A stretch of 64,000 bases of DNA, taken from assembly GCF_002278075.1 (NCBI RefSeq), contig NZ_CP022990.1, forward strand, positions 1,178,001 to 1,242,000, written 5' to 3'. A program made the position numbers and the translations under genes. Position 1 is the first letter of the stretch, and each line of letters starts with the position of its first letter. The notes beneath the pieces were generated by a model. It searched no databases, had not been told where the DNA came from, and saw nothing but the letters and a program-made list of their open reading frames with translations. This DNA is from Paraburkholderia aromaticivorans (GTDB taxonomy: Bacteria > Pseudomonadota > Gammaproteobacteria > Burkholderiales > Burkholderiaceae). Of this stretch, positions 10,073-56,759 are shown piece after piece.

Positions 10073-10954
10073 TTAAATCTGCAGTTCCGGCATGCGACTC
10101 GCGAGATATTCGCTGAAGTCCGACGACACTTCGGGATGGCGCAGCGCGAACTCCACCGTCGCCTTCAGGTAGCCGAGCTTGCTTCCGCAATCGAAACGCG
10201 TGCCGCTATACCGATAGGCCAGCACCTGTTCGTCGGCGAGTAGCGACTGGATCGCATCGGTGAGTTGCAGCTCGCCGCCGCTGCCCGGCCGCAATGCGCG
10301 CAGATGCTTGAAGATCCTCGGCTTGAGGACATAGCGGCCGACCACGCCGAAACGGGACGGCGCGTCCGCGGGCGCCGGCTTCTCGACGATGCCCGACAAT
10401 TTGAAAATATCCTCTTCCCATTGTTTGCCGTCGATCACGCCATAAGACTTCGACTCGTCCGGCGCGATCTCTTCGACACCGAGCACCGAGGTATGGTAAT
10501 GATCGAACACGTCGATCATCTGCCGCAGCACAGGCGGCCGCCCGTCCAATAGGTCATCGGCCAGCACGACGGCAAACGGACTGTCGCCGACGAGCTTTTC
10601 CGCGCACAACACCGCATGGCCCAAGCCCAGCGCTTCGGCCTGGCGAACATAGAAACAGTCCACATGGCTCGGCTTGATGCTGCGTACCAGCGAAAGTAGC
10701 TTCTCCTTTCCTCGTGCTTCGAGTTCGGCCTCGATCTCGTACGACTTGTCGAAATGATCCTCGATGGCCCGTTTGCTGCGTCCCGTCACGAAGATCATTT
10801 CAGTGATGCCGGCCGCGATCGCTTCTTCGACCGCGTACTGGATCAGCGGCTTATCGACAATCGGCAGCATTTCTTTCGGACTTGCTTTGGTCGCCGGAAG
10901 AAAGCGGGTACCGAGCCCCGCAACCGGAAAGACGGCTTTCGTTACATTAAGCAT
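10073..10954 (-). CDS. galU: UTP--glucose-1-phosphate uridylyltransferase
   Basis: 293 aa, normal for GalU. N-terminal KAVFPVAGLGTRFLPATKAS with following PKEMLPIVDKP is the nucleotide-binding and catalytic signature; ADDLLDG and GVVGRYVLKP are further GalU blocks. It makes UDP-glucose from UTP and glucose-1-phosphate, the precursor of UDP-galactose and UDP-glucuronate for exopolysaccharide. It is convergent with the exopolysaccharide operon (116 bp apart), so separately transcribed but functionally linked. No clear intrinsic terminator was seen between the two. Confidence 0.96.
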   Translation of the reverse strand: MLNVTKAVFPVAGLGTRFLPATKASPKEMLPIVDKPLIQYAVEEAIAAGITEMIFVTGRSKRAIEDHFDKSYEIEAELEARGKEKLLSLVRSIKPSHVDCFYVRQAEALGLGHAVLCAEKLVGDSPFAVVLADDLLDGRPPVLRQMIDVFDHYHTSVLGVEEIAPDESKSYGVIDGKQWEEDIFKLSGIVEKPAPADAPSRFGVVGRYVLKPRIFKHLRALRPGSGGELQLTDAIQSLLADEQVLAYRYSGTRFDCGSKLGYLKATVEFALRHPEVSSDFSEYLASRMPELQI

Positions 10955-11380
10955 AGGACTTGAATCTCGCGCGTGGAATGACCGGGTATTTATATGGCAT
11001 TACCGGTGTCTGAATCGCAAAAAGAACCTGCCCGCCCAAATCCACCGACGAGCAGGTTTAACCGAGGTTGAAAGGGTTCACCGAGAGCAGAGAAGCCCGA
11101 AACAAGTATCGTCTTCCAATAGTCGATCCGGCTAACCGTTTGTCTGATCAGGCTTATCAAATGACGGAACGCTACAGCAATGTGATTGACCGGCGTGACC
11201 CCGTCGCTATTCCCGCGCGATCACTTACAAAAAAATACGACGGATCGTCCCTATAGGCGGATTGAATCAAGGTTTTGTCAGAATTGGGAAAACCGCAATC
11301 AGTAAACTGATAAACGGAATCTGTCGCGTGATGAATAAGCGGCGGCGGACCCTTTCAACTCTCCCGGACGAAAAACCCAA
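10955..11380. other. Intergenic region between galU and the FlhD-like gene
   Basis: About 425 bp that must hold the divergent promoters of galU (leftward) and the FlhD-like gene (rightward). A weak inverted repeat (GAACCTGC at 11025 and GCAGGTT at 11053) lies near the galU side. The base composition drops somewhat towards 11150-11340. No ORF in it looks coding and no recognisable riboswitch or operator was found. Confidence 0.5.
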
Positions 11381-11614
11381 TTGGCCAAGAATTCAGACAG
11401 CCTGCAGGCAATCGCCGCATTCAACCAATCGTATCTGCTGCTCGCGCAGCGGATGCTTAAGGAAAACAGAGAGCAGGCAAAACGCGCGCTCGGCGTCTCA
11501 GACTCGATGGCAACCCGGATCAGTTCGCTGACACCGGCCGAAATCGAGGTCCTCTCCGATAGCTCGGAACTGATCTGTCAATTCAGATTCGACGCGGCGC
11601 CGAGCCGGGCGTGA
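11381..11614 (+). CDS. Short FlhD-like transcriptional regulator paralogue
   Basis: 77 aa with a TTG start; a stop codon lies upstream in frame at 11336 and there is no ATG or GTG between, so TTG 11381 is the only reasonable start. Residues 12-70 (FNQSYLLLAQRML ... SDSMATRISSLTPAEI ... LICQFRFDA) line up with the flagellar master regulator FlhD (NLSYLLLAQR, MA.....LT, L.C.FRFD). FlhD normally needs FlhC to bind DNA and is about 100-115 aa; this copy is shorter and no flhC or flagellar gene is near. It is probably a diverged paralogue acting alone or modulating the real FlhDC. Homology is clear by eye; function is inferred. Confidence 0.7.
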   Translation: MAKNSDSLQAIAAFNQSYLLLAQRMLKENREQAKRALGVSDSMATRISSLTPAEIEVLSDSSELICQFRFDAAPSRA

Positions 11615-11853
11615 CGCCTGCGCGCGCTTCAAACGCGCGGTGAGGTGGTTTCCGAACCCTCACAGGCGCCGAAGCTACCCCTATCACCGCTTCTCCGGGC
11701 AGCAGTCGCCCTGCCAGGGACAGCCGGTGAGTAAGGATTCCCTGACCCAGAGTTCAGCATCTACCGCTCACATTTTCTTGATCCCCTGACTGCACGGCGA
11801 AAACTGGCCGCATACGATGAACGCACATCGATTGCTTTCATCCAGGTGTTGCC

Positions 11854-12162
11854 ATGGTTCCGTATCTGTCCGAGAGAGAAAATTCAATCGAGCACATCAA
11901 CGCGATGTGCTTACGCCTCTTCGACCAGTGGTGCGAATCCCGCAGCATCGCGCCGCTGACGTATCTATTGCGAGGCTGGCCGATCCTCGACAGCGAGCCT
12001 GACACCCTGCGTCGTCTTAACACTGCTCTACGCGAGTTCAGACGGCAACATCCGCACGATTCCAGCGATGCCTCATTTCAGGAGGTGTGCGAGCTATCCG
12101 ATTGTGTCGAGGACCTGCTGATCCTCTCGTCGCTGCCAACGTGGCTGACGAGCGGCCTGTAG
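11854..12162 (+). CDS. Small conserved protein of a 'WCESRS' family, copy 1
   Basis: 102 aa, no signal peptide or membrane span; likely a soluble cytoplasmic protein. It is clearly related to the protein at 18370-18711: both share L-F-D-x-W-C-E-S-R-S-x-x-P-L-x-Y-L-L-x-x-W-P followed by R-L-x-x-x-L-R-E-x-R. I know no function for this family. It lies 240 bp after the FlhD-like gene and 61 bp before a transposase-derived gene on the same strand. The ATG at 11854 precedes the conserved block by about 18 residues. Confidence 0.6.
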   Translation: MVPYLSERENSIEHINAMCLRLFDQWCESRSIAPLTYLLRGWPILDSEPDTLRRLNTALREFRRQHPHDSSDASFQEVCELSDCVEDLLILSSLPTWLTSGL

Positions 12163-12223
12163 CGGCACCGGCGGCACCGGCGACACCCGGGCTCGCCCGA
12201 AGCAATGGGTAGGGGAGGACAGC

Positions 12224-13075
12224 GTGCATTTCGACGAAATCAGTGACGAAGAGTGGCTGCTGCTCGCGCCCATCCTCGCGGACCCGCCCATCCATCACCG
12301 GCAGCGCGGCCGGCCTCGCGCGCAGGTTCGCGTCGTGGCGAACGCCGTGCTGTGGGTGCTGACGACCGGCGAATCCTGGTCGATGTTGCCGAACCACTAT
12401 CCGTCGGCGCCGACCTGCCGCCACCGTTTCGAGGCCTGGCGTTCGAGCGGTGCCCTGGCGCAGATGTACCGGATTCTTTCGAACGGTGGCCGCAGGTTCC
12501 AGTGCGGTCCGCAATTTACCCTTGAGCGCCGCGCGGCCCCGGCGTACCGCGTCGATCGCCAGACTCGCGATGACGGTCTTCGCCGGGTGCTGTGGAGCGA
12601 ACAGGCGGCATGGCAGACACCGCGCGAGACATGGCAGTCGTCCCACACTGCCGATACGTTCAGGCATATCGCGCGGCAACTCCCGAATTCCGCGAATGCC
12701 GGGGAACCCGTTCCTGAGCGCGTCGAATCCCGCGCGCCGGTGACAACCCTGCGCTGCGTTCAACTGCCGCCCTCACCATGGAGCGGCCTCGCGTCGAAAG
12801 GCCCGGTCGAATCCGACCCGCGTGGCTATGTCATCCACGTGTGCGCCGATCCGCTGGCAAACGCCCGTTTCCGCGGGCGGGCCGAGATCGTGCGTGATGG
12901 AAGGCGAGTCGCTCGTTCCGGGCTGATCGGTCCGGGCTTCGAAGACCACGAGACGGCACGGCAATACGCGCTCGAATGGGCGCGGCGATGGATCGATGAG
13001 GAAAACGGCGAAAATGGGGACGACGCTGCCGAAGCGACTAACGGAGTTCAGCAACCCAAGAAGCGCTCCGGGTAA
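12224..13075 (+). CDS. Transposase N-domain (DUF4096-like) protein with a Burkholderia-type C-terminal domain
   Basis: 283 aa, GTG start with a strong ribosome binding site (GGGGAGG 9 nt upstream). Residues 1-95 match the IS5/IS4-type transposase N-terminal DNA-binding region: SDEEWLLLAPIL, RGRPRAQVRVVANAVLWVL, SWSMLPNHYPSAPTCRHRF. After that there is no DDE catalytic domain. Instead a linker leads to a C-terminal block (about 200-265) with YVIHVCADPLANARFRGRAE and RQYALEWARRWID, which resembles a short domain frequent in Burkholderia hypothetical proteins. So this is not an active transposase; it looks like an exapted DNA-binding protein. No IS ends were found around it. Confidence 0.65.
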   Translation: MHFDEISDEEWLLLAPILADPPIHHRQRGRPRAQVRVVANAVLWVLTTGESWSMLPNHYPSAPTCRHRFEAWRSSGALAQMYRILSNGGRRFQCGPQFTLERRAAPAYRVDRQTRDDGLRRVLWSEQAAWQTPRETWQSSHTADTFRHIARQLPNSANAGEPVPERVESRAPVTTLRCVQLPPSPWSGLASKGPVESDPRGYVIHVCADPLANARFRGRAEIVRDGRRVARSGLIGPGFEDHETARQYALEWARRWIDEENGENGDDAAEATNGVQQPKKRSG

Positions 13076-49494: not shown

Positions 49495-49707
49495 ATCGAC
49501 AAAGCTCATCTGGTTCTCCGGTGAGAACGCAGGAAAACTCCACTTCTCACCGGTAACCCGTCGATCACCTCTAGCGTAAATGGCTCACTGGAAAGCTTCG
49601 GTTTTTCCGAACCTTCCCTTCGCAATTAACAGGTTTATCCGATCCCGGGCATGCCGCAGACTGGGGCTCATCTTCACTACGGACATTGTCCGCGAAAGGA
49701 CCCGATC

Positions 49708-50169
49708 ATGCGCACCTATCCCCGTAACAGCCCCCAAGCCGCGGCACGCATCGTCGCGTTGGCCCTCACCTCCGACGGCCATGTCAGCAGCGCGGAAGAG
49801 CGTGTGCTGGACCGATTGAACATTGCTGGCGAACTCGGACTCGCGCCGGCGCAGTTCGAGCAGATCGTGCAGACGCTGTGTGAGGACCACTCGGTCGCCC
49901 AGCCCTCGTTCGCGCCGCCGGTGGGCCATCTCGATCCGGCCATGCTCACGAGCCTGATCGACGAGATCGACGATCCCGCGCTGCGTCGCAAGGTGATTCG
50001 CCTGTGTGTGGCCGTGGCGGTCGCCGACGACCATCTGGCGGACAGCGAAATCGCCTTGCTTGCCGCCGTATTGAACGCGTGGGGCCCCAATCTGACGCCG
50101 GCGGCGAGACGGCAGGGTCTCCCCTCGCACGTGCTGCGCGGTTATCAGCGCGCGGCGGCCACCACCTGA
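49708..50169 (+). CDS. TerB-like tellurite-resistance family protein
   Basis: 153 aa from ATG 49708 (GAAAGGA upstream). Helical protein with two acidic EF-loop-like segments: ALALTSDGHVSSAEERVLDRL and AVAVADDHLADSEIALL, the TerB fold's metal-binding Asp pairs. Cytoplasmic. Function in this genome unknown; TerB proteins are often linked to TerC-type membrane proteins, and a terC-like gene lies 1 kb downstream. Its 3' end overlaps the convergent LysR gene by 25 bp. Confidence 0.8.
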   Translation: MRTYPRNSPQAAARIVALALTSDGHVSSAEERVLDRLNIAGELGLAPAQFEQIVQTLCEDHSVAQPSFAPPVGHLDPAMLTSLIDEIDDPALRRKVIRLCVAVAVADDHLADSEIALLAAVLNAWGPNLTPAARRQGLPSHVLRGYQRAAATT

Positions 50170-51023
50170 GACGCGAGCCCGTGATGCTGGCCGCGACGCG
50201 AGCGGATGGCATGGATCTCTTCGATCACGCCGTCCGCGCGGCCGAGCCAGCGCAGCCCCCGCAGCAGCGACAGGTCTTCCGCGCCCAGTTCCGCGAGCGG
50301 AAACACGCCGAGGCCACGCGCGGCGAACACCGCCATCAACGCGCTGTCCTCGAATTCGCCGACGATGCGTGGCCGGATGCCCTGCGATTCGAACCAGCGG
50401 TCGAGCCTCGCGCGCAAGGCGGCGTGCCGGGTGGGCAGCAGCAGAGGCACCTCCGCGAGGCATTGTGGAAAGCCCGCGCGCGCGGATTTGCGGACGATCT
50501 CGGTCGGCCCGTACCAATCCACCGGCGAGCCGGCGAGGCGCTGGCTCAACACGCGCAAGTCGGCATTGTGCGGCGCCGGCTGGCAAGCGAGCACGAGATC
50601 GAGCCGGTGCAAGGCGAGCTCCGACATCAACTCCGCGTGCTCGCCCTCGTGACACAACAACCTGAGCGACGGCGTGCCGAGCACCGGCGCCAGCAGCGCG
50701 TGCGCCGCGAGCTTTGAAATGCCGTCGGAAAGCCCGACGGCGAGCCGCGCCACGCCTTCGCCGCCCGCCTCGCGCATGTCGTCGAGCAGCGCTTCGCCGA
50801 GCTGAAAAATCTGCTCCGCGCGATTGAACGCCGTTTCGCCGGCTTCCGTCATCGTGACGCCGCGCCCCGCCGGCTTCAGCAATTGCCGACCGATCGATTT
50901 TTCCAGCTCACGCACTTGCGCGCTGATGGTCTGAACCGCCATGTCGAGCCGCTCGGCCGCGCGCGCAAAGCCGCCCTCCTTCACGACGATCCAGAAATAG
51001 TACAGGTGGCGGTAGTTGAGCAT
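50145..51023 (-). CDS. LysR-family regulator, NhaR-like
   Basis: 292 aa. N-terminal HTH starts MLNYRHLYYFWIVVKEGGFARAAERL, with TISAQVRELEKSIGRQLL, the hallmark of the NhaR subgroup (LNYxHLYYF). NhaR proteins respond to Na+ and regulate antiporter or stress genes. The ligand-binding domain follows (VARLAVGLSDGISKLAAHAL). Divergent from the terC-like gene (120 bp between starts), which is its likely target. No nhaA is visible here. Confidence 0.88.
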   Translation of the reverse strand: MLNYRHLYYFWIVVKEGGFARAAERLDMAVQTISAQVRELEKSIGRQLLKPAGRGVTMTEAGETAFNRAEQIFQLGEALLDDMREAGGEGVARLAVGLSDGISKLAAHALLAPVLGTPSLRLLCHEGEHAELMSELALHRLDLVLACQPAPHNADLRVLSQRLAGSPVDWYGPTEIVRKSARAGFPQCLAEVPLLLPTRHAALRARLDRWFESQGIRPRIVGEFEDSALMAVFAARGLGVFPLAELGAEDLSLLRGLRWLGRADGVIEEIHAIRSRRGQHHGLASQVVAAAR

Positions 51024-51143
51024 GGTTGAACACTTCGAAAAAACCGATATGTCGATCAGCGTATCACTGATTTATCCGAAATGCCGAGAGGACGATCATG
51101 ACGCTATTCCAACGTTACCCGCCTCTATTCACCTACCGACACC

Positions 51144-51896
51144 ATGGACTTCCTGCTCACACTCGTTACCGACCCCGCCGCATGGGCAGCGCTCCTCACA
51201 CTGGTCGTGATGGAAATCGTGCTCGGCATCGACAACCTGATCTTCATCTCGATCCTCAGCAACAAGCTGCCGCAAGCGCAACGCGCACGCACGCAGCGCC
51301 TCGGCATCATGCTCGCGCTCGTGCTGCGGTTGGGTCTGCTCGGCACGGTCGCATGGATCGCGCAGTTGACCGCTCCCGCCGTCACCCTATTCGGCCACGC
51401 GTTTTCGTGGCGCGATCTGATTCTGCTGGCCGGCGGCCTGTTCCTTGTCTGGAAGGCCACACGTGAGATTCACCACCACGTGGTCCATGCCGAAGAAGAA
51501 CGCGACAACCCGAGCAGCACCGTGCAGTTGACCGTGGCAGGCGCGATCGGCCAGATCCTGTTGCTCGATATCGTGTTTTCGGTCGACAGCATCATCACGG
51601 CGGTCGGCATGACGGACCATATGCCGATCATGTTCATCGCGGTGATTAGCGCTGTGCTGGTCATGCTGTTCGCAGCGAGCCCGCTGTCGCGCTTCATCGA
51701 TCGCAATCCTACCATCGTCACGCTTGCACTGAGCTTCCTGCTCGTGATCGGCATGACGCTGATCGCGGAAGGTTTCGGCTCACACGTGCCGAAGACTTAC
51801 ATCTACGTGGCGATGGCGTTCTCCGCGTTCGTCGAGGCGATGAACATGCTGGTGCGCCGCGCGAAATCGAAGCGCGCGCTCGGCACCGGGCAATGA
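51144..51896 (+). CDS. TerC-family integral membrane protein
   Basis: 250 aa, about seven spans. Family motifs: [20 protein letters not shown] and [18 protein letters not shown], with paired acidic residues inside the membrane, as in TerC/Alx/MntX-type metal exporters. The family is linked to tellurite resistance and Mn2+ homeostasis. No yybP-ykoY-type riboswitch could be recognised in the 120-bp upstream region. Probably controlled by the divergent NhaR-like regulator. Confidence 0.92.
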
Positions 51897-52327: not shown

Positions 52328-52993
52328 TCAGCGCGCTTTGCCGCGGGCGCTCTTGCCGGCGTTGCCGGCGCGAGGCGCATCTTTACCCGCCGGCGCCGCG
52401 CCACCACTGATCTGTTCCATCCACGACAAGGCGTCGACATAGGAGAGGAACTGCTTCAGATAGCCCGGCGACACTTCGCGCATCAGCGAGAGCGCCCGGT
52501 GTACGAGACTGCTCGAGTTGAGCGGACCGGCGTTGCCGGGCACCTGCTCCAGCGATTGCCGCATCTGCTTCTCGGTGCGGACTTTGGACCAGACTTCCCT
52601 GAAGTAATCGAGTTCCGCGAGTTCCGGGTACGTGGCGGATCGCGGCGAGCCGAGCGTCGCGAGGACATGTTGACGCGCGATGGCGTCGACCAGGCTCTTC
52701 AGTGTTTCTTGAGCGGGCTCGTCTGCTAACGCCGAGCTGTCTGGGCGGGCACCGGCGTCGCCGCTGTCAGCCGGAGGTGTCGCGCCCTCGATCTGCCCGG
52801 CATAGGCCTCCAGCAGACCGGCCAGCCGGTCATCCAGAATCCGTCGCGCCTCGCCGCTGTGCCCGGCCGCGCGCCGCGCCAGCGCCTCGATGAAATGGAA
52901 GCGCACCGGATCCACCCGGTCGGCGCCGCGCTCGCGCCACGCGTCGAGCGTCGCACGGGCTGCGCTTGCCGGATCGCTATCACCATTACTCAC
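52328..52993 (-). CDS. DUF2894 family protein, last gene of the MotAB-like operon
   Basis: 221 aa with a GTG start at 52993 overlapping the OmpA-like stop by 8 nt. N-terminal ATLDAWRERGADRVDPVRFHFIEALARRAAGHSGEAR is the DUF2894 hallmark. C-terminal part LAELDYFREVWSKVRTEKQMRQS, VHRALSLMREVSPGYLKQFL; soluble and basic at the end. Function unknown. In this family the gene almost always follows an OmpA-like and a MotA/TolQ-like gene, so it probably belongs to the same membrane complex on the cytoplasmic side. Confidence 0.82.
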   Translation of the reverse strand: MSNGDSDPASAARATLDAWRERGADRVDPVRFHFIEALARRAAGHSGEARRILDDRLAGLLEAYAGQIEGATPPADSGDAGARPDSSALADEPAQETLKSLVDAIARQHVLATLGSPRSATYPELAELDYFREVWSKVRTEKQMRQSLEQVPGNAGPLNSSSLVHRALSLMREVSPGYLKQFLSYVDALSWMEQISGGAAPAGKDAPRAGNAGKSARGKAR

Positions 52994-53633
52994 GAGGCTT
53001 CCCCGGCGAGGTCGACGGCCGTGGAACCGGCGCGATTTCCACGCGCCGGTTTTTGGCGCGTCCCTGCTCGTCCGCATTCGAACTCACGGGTTGCCCGGAA
53101 CCGAACGCGGCGGCAAAGAGCGACGAGGCGGGCACGCCGTCGTCGATCAATGCGCGCGTGACCGTCAATGCGCGCTGCGCCGACAGCTCCCAGTTGTCGG
53201 CAAAGCGACGGTTGCCTTCGCGCAAGCGCTGGTCGTCGGTAAAGCCGCTCACCATCAGGATTTCGTCATTGGCGCCGAGATACGCGGACAGCGGCCCGGC
53301 CAGACTCTTGAGCAGATCCCGGCCTTGCGGCTGCAATTGCGCGGAGTTCAGCGCGAACAGCACATTGCCGCTGATGCCGATGCGGCCATTCACCAGCGTC
53401 ACGCGCCCGGCTGCCAGCGGGCCGGCGAGCGCCTGCTCCAGCGTCTTGCGGCGCTGCGTTTCGAGCTGACGCTGCTTGACCTCCTGCTCCAGCTTGTTCG
53501 ACAGCTCCAGTTGCACGCCTATGACGCCCACCAGTATCAACACGAAGGCGCCGAGCAGCACCGACATCAGGTCGCCGAAAACCGGCCAGATCGGCGCGAC
53601 CTGCTCCACGCCGCCGTCGATGTCCTCGCTCAT
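52986..53633 (-). CDS. MotB/OmpA-like peptidoglycan-anchored stator protein
   Basis: 215 aa. One N-terminal span with an Asp at its start (IWPVFGDLMSVLLGAFVLIL, D21), the position of the proton-carrying Asp of MotB/ExbD/ZorB. A coiled coil (about 48-75) follows, then an OmpA-C peptidoglycan-binding domain: LMVSGFTDDQRLREGNRRFA, LSAQRALTVTRALID, RAKNRRVEI. No plug-like extended linker. ATG overlaps the stop of the MotA-like gene (ATGA, 53630). With that partner it should form a proton-driven, cell-wall-fixed complex. Confidence 0.85.
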   Translation of the reverse strand: MSEDIDGGVEQVAPIWPVFGDLMSVLLGAFVLILVGVIGVQLELSNKLEQEVKQRQLETQRRKTLEQALAGPLAAGRVTLVNGRIGISGNVLFALNSAQLQPQGRDLLKSLAGPLSAYLGANDEILMVSGFTDDQRLREGNRRFADNWELSAQRALTVTRALIDDGVPASSLFAAAFGSGQPVSSNADEQGRAKNRRVEIAPVPRPSTSPGKPRE

Positions 53634-55987
53634 GCCGCTTCAGCTCCGGCTGGCGCGCGCCGGCCGGCGAGCTGCTGCAGGTCTTCGACGATCTGCTTCT
53701 GCGACATCACGCTCAGGTCGATGACTTCCCGCGCTTGCGCCACGTAATACGCAAGCTGTTCGTCGCTGCGCGCGAGGGATTTGTCGAGCGCGGTTTCGAT
53801 ACGCTGCAGATGCGTGACGAGCTTGTCGTTCGACTCGCCGAACACTTGCACGGCGGCGCCGAACGCTTCGCCGAGGCTCGCCACTTCGACGGCGCTGCCG
53901 GTGACTTGCGCGGCCACCGAGCCCAGCTTGCCGGTTTCGAGTTCGAGCCTGTCGGTAAAGCGCGTCCCCACGCGCTCCAGCAAATCCGCCGAAGTGGCGA
54001 CGAGCGCGTCGACGGCCGTGCGCTGCTCGGTCGACGCATGGTTGACGGCATCCAGCAGGGTTTCCAGCGTTGCCAGCAAGCGGCTGCGCTCCTCCAGCAT
54101 CGCGGTGTCGCGCACCATGCTGTCGGAGAGCTTCTGGCGCAGTTCGGCGACGACCTCGGCGGCGGCCTTGGGTGCTTCCGAAGCCGCCTGCACGAGTTGG
54201 CCGATCTCGGCAATCGTGCCGCTCGCGTGCGCCTGTGTCTGGGCCGAAATATCGCGCGCGGTTTGCGCCAGCGTCTCGCAGATTTCCTGCTGGCGGCTCG
54301 CGGTGCGCGCGCCCGCCTGCTCCCACTCCTTGCTCAACGTCGCGGCCATCGCGCCGAGCGCCTCGGTCCAGGCTGCCAGCCTCTGCTGATCCCGCGAGAC
54401 CAACTCGGCCTGCAGGTTCGCCGCGGCCTTCGGCGCTTCCGCTGCGGCCTGAACGAGCCGCTCGATCTCGGCAATCGTGTTGCTCGCATGCGCCTGCGTC
54501 TGAGCCGAGATGTCGCGCGCCGTTTGCGCCAGCGTCTCGCAGATTTGCTGCTGACGGTCCGCGGTGCGCGCGCCCGACTGTTCCCATTCCTTGCTCAACG
54601 TCGCCGCCATCGCGCCGAGCGCCTCGGTCCAGACGGCGAGCCGCTGTTCGTCCTTCGAGGCCAATCCGGTCTGCAAGTCCGCGTGCGACTGTCCCACGCC
54701 GCGCAGCAGCGACGCCGCGTGCTGCTCGAAGGTCGCGGCGGCCGCCGCCAAGGCTTGCTGGTTGCTGGCCGCGAGCTTCTCGCCGACGTTTTCCTGGCGC
54801 GACAGCGCCTCGTTCCAGGCCTGCGATACGCCGCCCGCGGCGCTTTCCAGCCGTGCGGCCACGCCGTCGAGCAAACCGGCCGAGCGTTGCTCGAAAGTCT
54901 CGGTGAAGCGATCCAGCGAGGCGCGCAGGCGCTGCGCCAGTTCTTCGCTCGAACGCTGATGTCCCGCCAATGCCTTGTTCCAGAGCTCCGCGACGGTCGC
55001 GGTGCTCGCCTCGAAGCCGCTCGACAGGCCGTCCAGTTGCCGCTGCACGGCGTGCGTGACGGTCTCGTGCAACGCGGCCGTTTCGCGCGCGAGGCCGGCC
55101 ATCGTGGCTTCCATGACCGGCTGCAACGCCGCGCCGGCGGCGCGCGTGCTGTCCGCCACGCTGGCCTTCAACGACTGCTCGACCGAGCCGGCGAGGCGCG
55201 TGTAAGTGGCCTCGGCCCTCGCGTGGAAAGCCTCCTGGCTGCCGAGCTGCCGCTCGTTCAAGGCGAGGCTCTGCTGCTCGATGGCCGTCATCATCGTCTG
55301 CAGGCGGTCGACCAGCGTCGGCATCACCTCGGCCTGACGCTGCAGCAGCCTGAAGGCTTCTTCGCGCTGATGGGTCTGCGAGTAGATGCGCAGCGTCGTG
55401 GCGATCTTCACGTCGAGCATCTGCGCCGCCTGCAGGCGCTCGCGCCGGCACAACGCGGACAACAGTCCGAGCATGGCGGAGCTCGCCACGCCCGCAATCG
55501 AGGTGCCGAACGCAAAGCCCAGCCCCTTGACCGGCGCGGCCAGCGAGGCGCGGATCGCCTGCAGGTCGGTGGCGCTTTCCAGCGCCATGCCGGTGCCGCG
55601 CAGAGTGGCCACCATGCCGAGCAGCGTGCCCAGCATGCCCAGCAGCACCAGCAAGCCGACGAGATAAGGCGTCAGCGCCGGCCCCGGCAAAGCCACGCGC
55701 TCACCCTCGACGCGCAGGCGCACCGGATTACGCAGGCTGGGATGCAAGGGTTCGAGCCAGGCGCCGAGGCCCAGCGGCGGCGCGGACAGCCCCGCGACGG
55801 CGCGCGTCAGCGTGCCGGTAGCCTCGCGGTAGCGGTGCAGCTCGAGCGCGCCCGCCACGTAGCAAGCGCCGATCAATAAGGTGACGGCCAGCGCCAGCGG
55901 GTTCGAACCAAGGTAGCCGGCGGCGATCCAGCACACAGCGGCCAGACCTGCCAGAAACACAACGAGATCAATACGATATCTGGACAT
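53630..55987 (-). CDS. DUF802 MotA/TolQ/ZorA-like membrane protein with long helical tail
   Basis: 785 aa from ATG 55987. Spans at about 6-27, 30-50, 105-128 and 158-180; the last two carry LLGMLGTLLGMVATLRGTG and GFAFGTSIAGVASSAMLGLL, the MotA/TolQ/ExbB signature. Residues 185-785 are an alanine- and glutamine-rich coiled-coil tail projecting into the cytoplasm. It includes two near-identical 87-residue modules (QRLA-WTEALGAMAATLSKEWEQ ... CETLAQTARDISAQTQAHAS), coded at 54403-54663 and 54142-54402. The tail length resembles ZorA of Zorya defence systems more than flagellar MotA. Function unknown. Confidence 0.85.
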   Translation of the reverse strand: MSRYRIDLVVFLAGLAAVCWIAAGYLGSNPLALAVTLLIGACYVAGALELHRYREATGTLTRAVAGLSAPPLGLGAWLEPLHPSLRNPVRLRVEGERVALPGPALTPYLVGLLVLLGMLGTLLGMVATLRGTGMALESATDLQAIRASLAAPVKGLGFAFGTSIAGVASSAMLGLLSALCRRERLQAAQMLDVKIATTLRIYSQTHQREEAFRLLQRQAEVMPTLVDRLQTMMTAIEQQSLALNERQLGSQEAFHARAEATYTRLAGSVEQSLKASVADSTRAAGAALQPVMEATMAGLARETAALHETVTHAVQRQLDGLSSGFEASTATVAELWNKALAGHQRSSEELAQRLRASLDRFTETFEQRSAGLLDGVAARLESAAGGVSQAWNEALSRQENVGEKLAASNQQALAAAAATFEQHAASLLRGVGQSHADLQTGLASKDEQRLAVWTEALGAMAATLSKEWEQSGARTADRQQQICETLAQTARDISAQTQAHASNTIAEIERLVQAAAEAPKAAANLQAELVSRDQQRLAAWTEALGAMAATLSKEWEQAGARTASRQQEICETLAQTARDISAQTQAHASGTIAEIGQLVQAASEAPKAAAEVVAELRQKLSDSMVRDTAMLEERSRLLATLETLLDAVNHASTEQRTAVDALVATSADLLERVGTRFTDRLELETGKLGSVAAQVTGSAVEVASLGEAFGAAVQVFGESNDKLVTHLQRIETALDKSLARSDEQLAYYVAQAREVIDLSVMSQKQIVEDLQQLAGRRAPAGAEAA
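54142..54663 (-). repeat. 261-bp in-frame tandem duplication in the DUF802 gene
   Basis: Two adjacent 261-nt segments (54403-54663, then 54142-54402 in reading order) code 87-residue modules differing at only a few positions. The period is a multiple of three and 87 residues fits whole helical turns, so it lengthens the tail without a frame change. Confidence 0.85.
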
Positions 55988-55997
55988 AGTGTCCCAG

Positions 55998-56759
55998 TTA
56001 GCTGGCGCGAAGGGCGGCGAGCAACCCTTCGACCGGTTGTAAACGAATATCCAGTTCGGCAAGCAACACGCTCTGCATATCCTTGCGGAACAGGTTCAGC
56101 CATGCGCCCGGCGTGAGGGCCGCTGCGTTGCCGGAGGCGTCGCTGGCGGTGTCGCCCGCGGCCTCGGCGGCGGCCAGCGCCGCCTGCTCGGCCCCGCGCA
56201 AGCGCTCGAAATGTCCAGCGAGCAGCACGGGCACGGCAGCGAGCAGATTGCGCTCGCGCTCGCTCAACGCCCGCTCCATCACCGCGTCGACCACCGCGAG
56301 GCGCGCCATGGCAGGCGTTCTGGCCGCCAGCATGGCTCGCAGCCGGCCGCGCAGATTGCCGATGCCCGTTTCCATCGACTGCTGGATGGCAAGATAGCGC
56401 TGACGAAACACCGCGTAGTCGGCCGCGGGCTCCGTGGGCGCGCCGCCCGAGGACGCGTGCCCGTGCCGCCGCGCGGCGGCGAACACGCTATCGCCCGTGA
56501 TGGCCTTCGCCAGCGAGCTGCGCGCGCGGACGTAGTCGGCCTCTTCGGCGCTGCCGAAGGCTCGCGCGCCGGCGGCGACGGCGGGCGGATTGCCGTTCAG
56601 CGCCGAGGACAGCGCAATGGCGTCGGTCCAGCCGAGCCATTGGCTGAGCCGGTCCGAGAGCGATTGCCTAGATTCGGGGACGTCGGCATCCGCGAGGCGC
56701 GCCAGTAGGCGAACGAGCGCCGGGCCGCTGAGCGCGGTGCGCTGGGGGGCTTGCAACAT
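55998..56759 (-). CDS. DUF3348 family protein, first gene of the MotAB-like operon
   Basis: 253 aa. N-terminal GPALVRLLARLADADVPESRQSLSDRLSQWLGWTDAIALSSAL is the DUF3348 signature; C-terminal WLNLFRKDMQSVLLAELDIRLQPVEGLLAALRA. All-helical, cytoplasmic, function unknown. It stops 10 bp before the MotA-like gene. The set DUF3348-DUF802-OmpA-DUF2894 is conserved as a unit in beta- and gamma-proteobacteria to my knowledge, always uncharacterised. Confidence 0.85.
   Translation of the reverse strand: MLQAPQRTALSGPALVRLLARLADADVPESRQSLSDRLSQWLGWTDAIALSSALNGNPPAVAAGARAFGSAEEADYVRARSSLAKAITGDSVFAAARRHGHASSGGAPTEPAADYAVFRQRYLAIQQSMETGIGNLRGRLRAMLAARTPAMARLAVVDAVMERALSERERNLLAAVPVLLAGHFERLRGAEQAALAAAEAAGDTASDASGNAAALTPGAWLNLFRKDMQSVLLAELDIRLQPVEGLLAALRAS

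Follow-up and report, generated by a model that had tools for sequence, protein, structure and literature searches.

In Zorya systems of types I and II, ZorA consists of a MotA-like core with a long tail, and ZorB carries an aspartate (D24/D21) and a peptidoglycan-binding domain; ZorA5B2 structures have been solved for both types. The proposed working of these systems is that ZorB senses a disturbance of the wall by an incoming phage, whereupon an ion flow sets ZorA turning and the tail recruits the effectors. According to Mariano and colleagues, who compared the families of types I and II, the components of each family vary little in size. Zorya type III was defined in 2021 by Payne and colleagues from 6,401 instances (PMC8565338). 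The same paper reports that a type III system from Stenotrophomonas nitritireducens, placed in E. coli, lowered the plaquing of at least one phage, and its authors proposed that the two DUF proteins of this type regulate ZorAB.

We have analysed a locus of the same kind in a 64,000-nucleotide stretch of DNA (here called the window) from Paraburkholderia aromaticivorans, which has a genome of 8.9 Mb. The closest relatives of its proteins are mostly from Paraburkholderia, with P. xenovorans at the top.

Operon organization

The window sequence and an ORF check show a compact operon on the minus strand, running from 56759 to 52328 in the order DUF3348, zorA, zorB and DUF2894, and the tightly packed four-gene arrangement described in a first-pass annotation of the window was confirmed. 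The first gene (55998..56759) encodes a DUF3348 protein of 253 aa, matching PF11828 with 325 bits and PADLOC ZorG3 with 377 bits. It is followed by a type III zorA (53630..55987; PADLOC ZorA3, 1482 bits), encoding a MotA/TolQ-like motor subunit with a long tail, and a type III zorB (52986..53633; PADLOC ZorB3, 389 bits), whose 215-aa product has one membrane span and an OmpA peptidoglycan-binding domain. The last gene encodes the DUF2894 protein (52328..52993; PF11445, 223 bits). ZorA is 785 aa long counted from an ATG, a TTG start would give a longer frame, and the 768-aa database entry P0253 seems to be the window ZorA with a later start. The full open frame of DUF2894 covers 52328-53077 and has a candidate GTG start near 52993, which is the more likely one because the window protein's own database copy is 221 aa, the length given by the GTG.

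The gap between DUF3348 and zorA is 10 bp in the window, as in 77 out of 117 other loci, and zorA and zorB overlap by 4 bp, as they do in 89 out of 116. The overlap between zorB and DUF2894 is 8 bp, counted from the GTG. All Pfam matches of the operon proteins (DUF3348, two copies of DUF802, OmpA and DUF2894) are above cut-off. By tblastn the four genes were found together in 39/40 loci of one set and 78/80 of another, so the four-gene set is not due to chance, and the co-occurrence that the first-pass annotation had wanted to see checked was borne out. At the three loci without the full set, the operon reaches a contig end internally. One locus counted among the 39 (L068, at 10436-12341 in the 5.2-Mb genome G008) keeps DUF3348, zorB and DUF2894, but the zorA match, which follows DUF3348 directly, begins at residue 405 and so lacks the motor half; this copy has either decayed or been misassembled.

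Relation to Zorya and other membrane motors

All four proteins match the PADLOC models of Zorya type III, with best E-values from 0 to 9e-85, and zorA, zorB, DUF3348 and DUF2894 stand in one cluster, which is the gene set that defines the type. Judged from these model matches, the operon is a Zorya type III system, an already known kind of antiviral membrane motor. It has the same four genes, each scoring high against its model set, with no difference in kind; compared with the repeat-free ZorA form of 698 aa, the window tail has one extra module of 87 residues. The gene names are swapped between sources, PADLOC-DB calling DUF3348 ZorG and DUF2894 ZorF, and two Zorya papers, PMC8565338 among them, calling DUF3348 ZorF and DUF2894 ZorG.

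The likeness to type I is limited, as the window ZorA reaches 19.4 of 190 bits on the NCBIfam type I model (NF033914), below its cut-off. Neither ZorC/D (helicase and nuclease), which would make up a type I set, nor the HNH nickase ZorE of type II was found beside ZorAB among the Pfam and PADLOC matches of the operon and the scanned neighbours. The flagellar stator MotAB shares the motor logic, the aspartate in ZorB and an OmpA-type domain related to that of MotB, but ZorB scores far below the curated MotB cut-offs (25 of 41 families listed) and the ZorA tail is very long; no flagellar families were seen among the scanned neighbours. TolQR and ExbBD belong to the same superfamily of ion-driven membrane motors. 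The window differs from them in the OmpA domain on the B subunit and in the long cytoplasmic tail, and the Pfam matches of the operon proteins include no MotA/TolQ/ExbB or TolR/ExbD model.

The first-pass annotation had described a wall-anchored motor of the MotAB/ZorAB kind with two partner proteins, which was right, and had called its role unknown, which was wrong: the PADLOC models (four of four) and the literature rule that reading out. It had itself counted a published function of the gene set against its reading, and such a function is in part on record. Defence was among its guesses, and the published protection by the Stenotrophomonas homologue (PMC8565338) agrees with that.

The motor core

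The MotA-like membrane core of ZorA comprises residues 104-181 (55445..55678). The Pfam MotA/ExbB model gave no match on ZorA, and an N-terminal profile built from 20 homologues had a sole significant match in the PDB, 8vvn, which is ZorA of type I (E 2.2e-6). T121, T162 and S163 of this core are invariant in 20/20 homologues. In ZorB, the presumed ion-relay aspartate proposed by the first-pass annotation, D21 (codon at 53571..53573), is likewise invariant in all 20 aligned homologues. The peptidoglycan-binding domain of the OmpA type lies at residues 92-196 (53046..53360) and is recognised from sequence by Pfam (PF00691), MotB chains in the PDB and conserved residues; D133, D134, R154, R192, N195, R196 and R197 of ZorB are invariant in 20 homologues. 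The invariance of D21 and of the ZorA threonines and serine would agree with the aspartate and the ring of Thr/Ser residues that types I and II are described to have.

Distribution, descent and neighbourhood

Of 58 Paraburkholderia genomes, 55 contain both DUF3348 and DUF2894; the other three lack both and have only weaker OmpA-domain matches to ZorB (best E 3e-13). The operon is nearly always in single copy. A second, overlapping draw gave, among the genomes listed, DUF3348 in 34 Paraburkholderia and its absence from 5, so the operon is near-universal in the genus and not universal. Full-length type-I-like ZorA (NF033914, all below cut-off) occurs in 4/58 genomes of the genus, and in the other four of the eight genomes matching this model the matches are partial and lie at the type III operon itself. 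The family draw was positive in 207 of 299 genomes and 11 of 25 genera, and among 20 negatives listed (of 92), 12 were under 2.5 Mb. The operon was found in 25 of 399 genomes of the order (24 above cut-off) and in 8 of 369 of the class. DUF3348 had no match in phage records, and of 51 pattern matches to ZorA in viral contigs none was confirmed. On plasmids ZorA was found in 27 of 72,556 records at E 1e-30, and among the 20 listed the replicon size ranges from 366 kb to 3.5 Mb.

A distribution of this kind could be that of a housekeeping envelope machine of the Burkholderiaceae, a motor that would monitor or act on the cell wall during ordinary growth, the phage protection being a side effect of over-expression in E. 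coli. It is favoured by the near-fixation in the genus, the wide occurrence in the family and the single copy, and also by the descent of the operon. In 19 genomes of the genus the operon distances follow those of rpoB and gyrB together (Mantel 0.73) as well as the two markers follow each other (0.737), and the Zor tree shares 6/16 splits with the marker trees without any strongly supported conflict; the rpoB and gyrB trees share six splits with one conflict. Two genomes were left out of the trees, G008 (no intact zorA ORF, locus L068) and G033 (no rpoB found). Pure vertical descent is not fully supported, since the Zor alignment is not compatible with the exact topology of rpoB+gyrB (AU test, p 0.0006); among 28 genomes of the order there were 2 strong conflicts. 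Outside the family the occurrence is patchy, contrary to what housekeeping would give. Furthermore, the ZorA N-termini of Rhodanobacter, Dyella and Luteimonas, which we take to belong to another order than Variovorax and the window host, are 79-81% identical to that of the window, as compared to 72-77% for Variovorax, and a transfer between orders is therefore likely.

The neighbourhood also speaks against a housekeeping machine. By shared flanking DNA, 21 loci (the window included) fall into 12-13 neighbourhoods, which rules out a fixed syntenic locus. In 13 genomes the operon shares its flank in 7-8 of 78 pairs, as compared to 46-55 of 78 for a control gene, a single gene of the same window whose requirement of a long, close copy (13/21 genomes) biases the comparison toward a stable gene. 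The operon of the window is surrounded by genes for TerC, a TerB-like protein, LysR regulators, an FAD oxidoreductase, an aldo-keto reductase, a two-component pair and a GGDEF/EAL protein. The TerB-like and TerC genes lie at 49651-51896, just past DUF2894, and among the 21 loci only one other (L065, genome G022) shares this flank.

The distance to defence islands, which the first-pass annotation had proposed to look at, gave no support for defence. The neighbours are metabolic and regulatory, and two of the 119 ORFs that flank the operon in 20 relatives (called mechanically, up to three on each side) matched PADLOC defence models at 1e-20. With so few, and with a distribution that is not patchy (55/58 genomes), the operon does not behave as a member of a mobile defence island; the 25 commonest of 139 flanking Pfam families include no transposase or integrase. 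The scarcity of defence genes nearby and the lack of a match in phage records or of a confirmed one in viral contigs again fit a housekeeping role, as does a CRISPRi screen of predicted defence genes in Burkholderia cenocepacia K56-2, Zorya III included, for which unchanged fitness during Bcep176 infection is reported (PMC12584637); in that study one phage was used, and the first one or two of the Zorya III genes changed expression. Near-fixation together with absence from defence islands is unusual for a defence system. All the same, direct phage protection is published for a type III homologue (PMC8565338), and with the changing neighbourhood, the patchiness outside the family and the signs of transfer we consider a housekeeping role unlikely. 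The near-fixation with changing neighbours within the genus is a new part of the picture.

The DUF3348 and DUF2894 proteins

Searches of Pfam, of NCBIfam and of the PDB by profile gave no convincing enzyme match for either DUF protein, the NCBIfam comparison comprising 57 DUF2894 homologues but one DUF3348. The PDB profile search gave nothing for DUF3348 and six matches for DUF2894, all with E 0.9 or worse. A match of DUF2894 to the SctY chaperone (E 0.067) was taken as chance, because at 0.1 it was found in 1/57 homologues, the window's own, as was the case for nine other single-member families; one such chance-level family is a VapC ribonuclease model (E 0.087). The last 25 residues of DUF2894 (52331..52405) are basic, with a net charge that averages +5.8 in 81 homologues and is +4 or more in 96% of them, and by its charge this tail could bind DNA or membrane. 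A weak second match resembling DUF2894, in an open frame of 1450 residues, was seen at G033:C15:103209-103685 (E 7e-4, below cut-off). In the control genome of Corynebacterium glutamicum, a bacterium remote from the reported Zorya III hosts, the DUF2894 model matched above cut-off.

An operon in which no effector enzyme is recognised by Pfam, NCBIfam or PDB profiles might act by an ion leak through ZorAB, with the DUF proteins only gating the channel, and this would fit the regulatory role that Payne and colleagues suggested for them (PMC8565338). For a mere leak, however, the phase-locked tail with a conserved end described below would be superfluous, and in types I and II tail mutations are reported to abolish defence. 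We find such a leak improbable as the whole action of the system.

Length of the ZorA tail

The tail of ZorA is about 570 residues long, close to the 600 given in the first-pass annotation. It contains two DUF802 copies, at residues 321-373 and 376-428 (54704..55027), and a tandem module of 261 bp, or 87 residues, at 54162..54646, present in 1.9 copies that are 86% alike; the repeated stretch corresponds to residues 428-624. The remaining 161 residues past the repeat (625-785, at 53633..54115) form a conserved end.

In 118 ZorA proteins, of which 116 are distinct (the identical pairs L060/L112 and L070/L162 are the same contigs under two names), the length varies between 601 and 1229 aa; three more loci, L068, L089 and L101, have no usable zorA frame. 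Type III thus differs in size constancy from types I and II, where component sizes are conserved per family. The lengths climb in steps of 698, 785, 872 and 959 aa through tandem copies of the 87-residue module, the window being the 785 form, and the commonest are 698, 785 and 871 aa. On the ladder 698+87k, within 4 aa, are 67/118 proteins (66/116 distinct). Of the nearest database ZorA (the best 120 of 8000 scored candidates) 112 are on it within 1 aa, six of them by way of the alternative-start lengths 681/768.

The steps occur also within species. P. domus has ZorA of 697 and 784 aa, two of which are equal at 694/697 positions outside one gap of 87 residues, both P. aspalathi and P. madseniana have 784 and 871 aa, and P. 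bryophila has 785 and 872 aa. P. caffeinilytica and P. sediminicola each have 784 and 871 aa as well, but within each of these two species the proteins are about 10% different anyway. The seven P. nemoris entries are uniform in length, and so are the three of P. xenovorans. Fitch parsimony on one tree of ZorA N-termini counted 61 length changes over 33 classes, as compared to 83 on average for shuffled labels, a count that can be inflated by tree errors.

The repeats stay away from the end of the protein. In 82 repeat-bearing ZorA the repeat ends at least 97 residues from the C-terminus (median 172.5), and in those with the 87-residue unit only, the distance is 153-207. With the repeat-free ZorA of LB400 (698 aa) as reference, the mean fraction of the majority residue is 0.85 over the untouched end, residues 535-698, and lowest, 0.69, over residues 326-475. 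Part of the module is conserved as well (0.855 over residues 476-534), which implies that it is not a mere unconstrained spacer. The tails at three loci (L083, L090 and L091) have tandem arrays of 11 residues instead of the 87-residue module, with 25-30/40 residues identical at the offset. Tail repeats are also present outside type III, with an internal repeat at 2/10 loci with type-I-like ZorA, one of the ten being truncated.

Helical phase of the ZorA tail

Other lineages have repeat units of other lengths, and 18 different sizes between 11 and 204 residues were used (a unit of 176 was excluded from the list as a multiple of 11). With 3.64 residues to the turn, these sizes fit whole turns, the residual being 0.054 turn on average, as compared to 0.175 for the null, and none of 5000 null sets (nearby redrawn sizes, period refitted) came as low as 0.054. 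A stricter list of 13 sizes, from which the evident multiples 11, 33, 102, 153 and 204 were dropped, gave a residual of 0.053 at 3.634, again with 0/5000 null sets as low. The fit is much poorer at periods of 3.5, 3.6 and 3.667. In 28 repeat-free tails the hydrophobic residues recur with a period of 3.67 in the half near the membrane core and of 3.575 in the other, so that neither half is at exactly 3.64, with peak powers of 22.2 and 12.7 as compared to a shuffled maximum of 1.45. The unit sizes at whole turns and the hydrophobic periods together point to a tail that acts like a long amphipathic helix, and it seems that duplications survive only when the stripe of the helix stays in register. 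With the textbook helix rise of 1.5 Angstrom per residue, a module of 87 residues lengthens the tail by about 13 nm. As the length is free and the helix phase is not, a shaft that transmits rotation or register fits better than a ruler of fixed reach.

That the ladder is an assembly artefact, short reads misjudging the tandem copies, or neutral copy slippage with no effect is improbable, because differently sized units (18 sizes across lineages) share one helical period, and the 698 aa of LB400 lie on a complete chromosome and the 785/872 aa of P. bryophila on contigs of 8.1/6.6 Mb, although several of the compared assemblies are drafts and two entries, P0291 and P0349, are named partial and end at 501 and 498 aa.

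We found no report of a phase-locked tail polymorphic in length in the Zorya literature searched, to which Hu et al. 2025 did not belong, and this feature seems to be a new part of the system.

Proposed mechanism

The reading we prefer, with a probability of roughly 0.7, is that the operon is a Zorya III antiviral motor in which ZorA has a continuous helical tail with an adjustable repeat stretch and a working end that most likely docks the DUF proteins. Family membership, conserved ion-path residues, the four-gene set, the tail anatomy and the near-fixation in the genus are observations made here, and the motor steps follow the model of types I and II. By that analogy, five ZorA and two ZorB would form an ion-driven rotary motor. 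When a phage disturbs the wall, ZorB would sense it and grip the peptidoglycan, ions would flow, ZorA would turn, and the tail would carry the signal inward. From the repeat sizes and the conservation we infer that the tail is one continuous helical bundle whose length is set by the repeat-prone stretch, and that the conserved, repeat-free end is the working part, which most likely docks DUF3348 and DUF2894. These two proteins would then stand in for ZorC/D or ZorE. It is tentatively suggested by its conserved basic tail that DUF2894 may touch DNA, though we would not count on it.

The change in ZorA length may be neutral slippage. It is conceivable, and in our opinion rather unlikely, that the tail length is an adjustable setting, where recombination of the 261-bp module adds or removes phase-preserving segments of 13 nm, so that strains of one species carry different settings and differ in the phages that are stopped or in how easily the motor fires.

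The findings bear on how the Zorya tail leads from wall damage to defence, by rotation, reach or recruitment. There are natural type III alleles that differ almost only by one 87-residue module, and with these the effects of length and phase could be cleanly told apart. That the operon is nearly fixed in one genus while its neighbours change also questions whether Zorya III is an ordinary mobile defence system.
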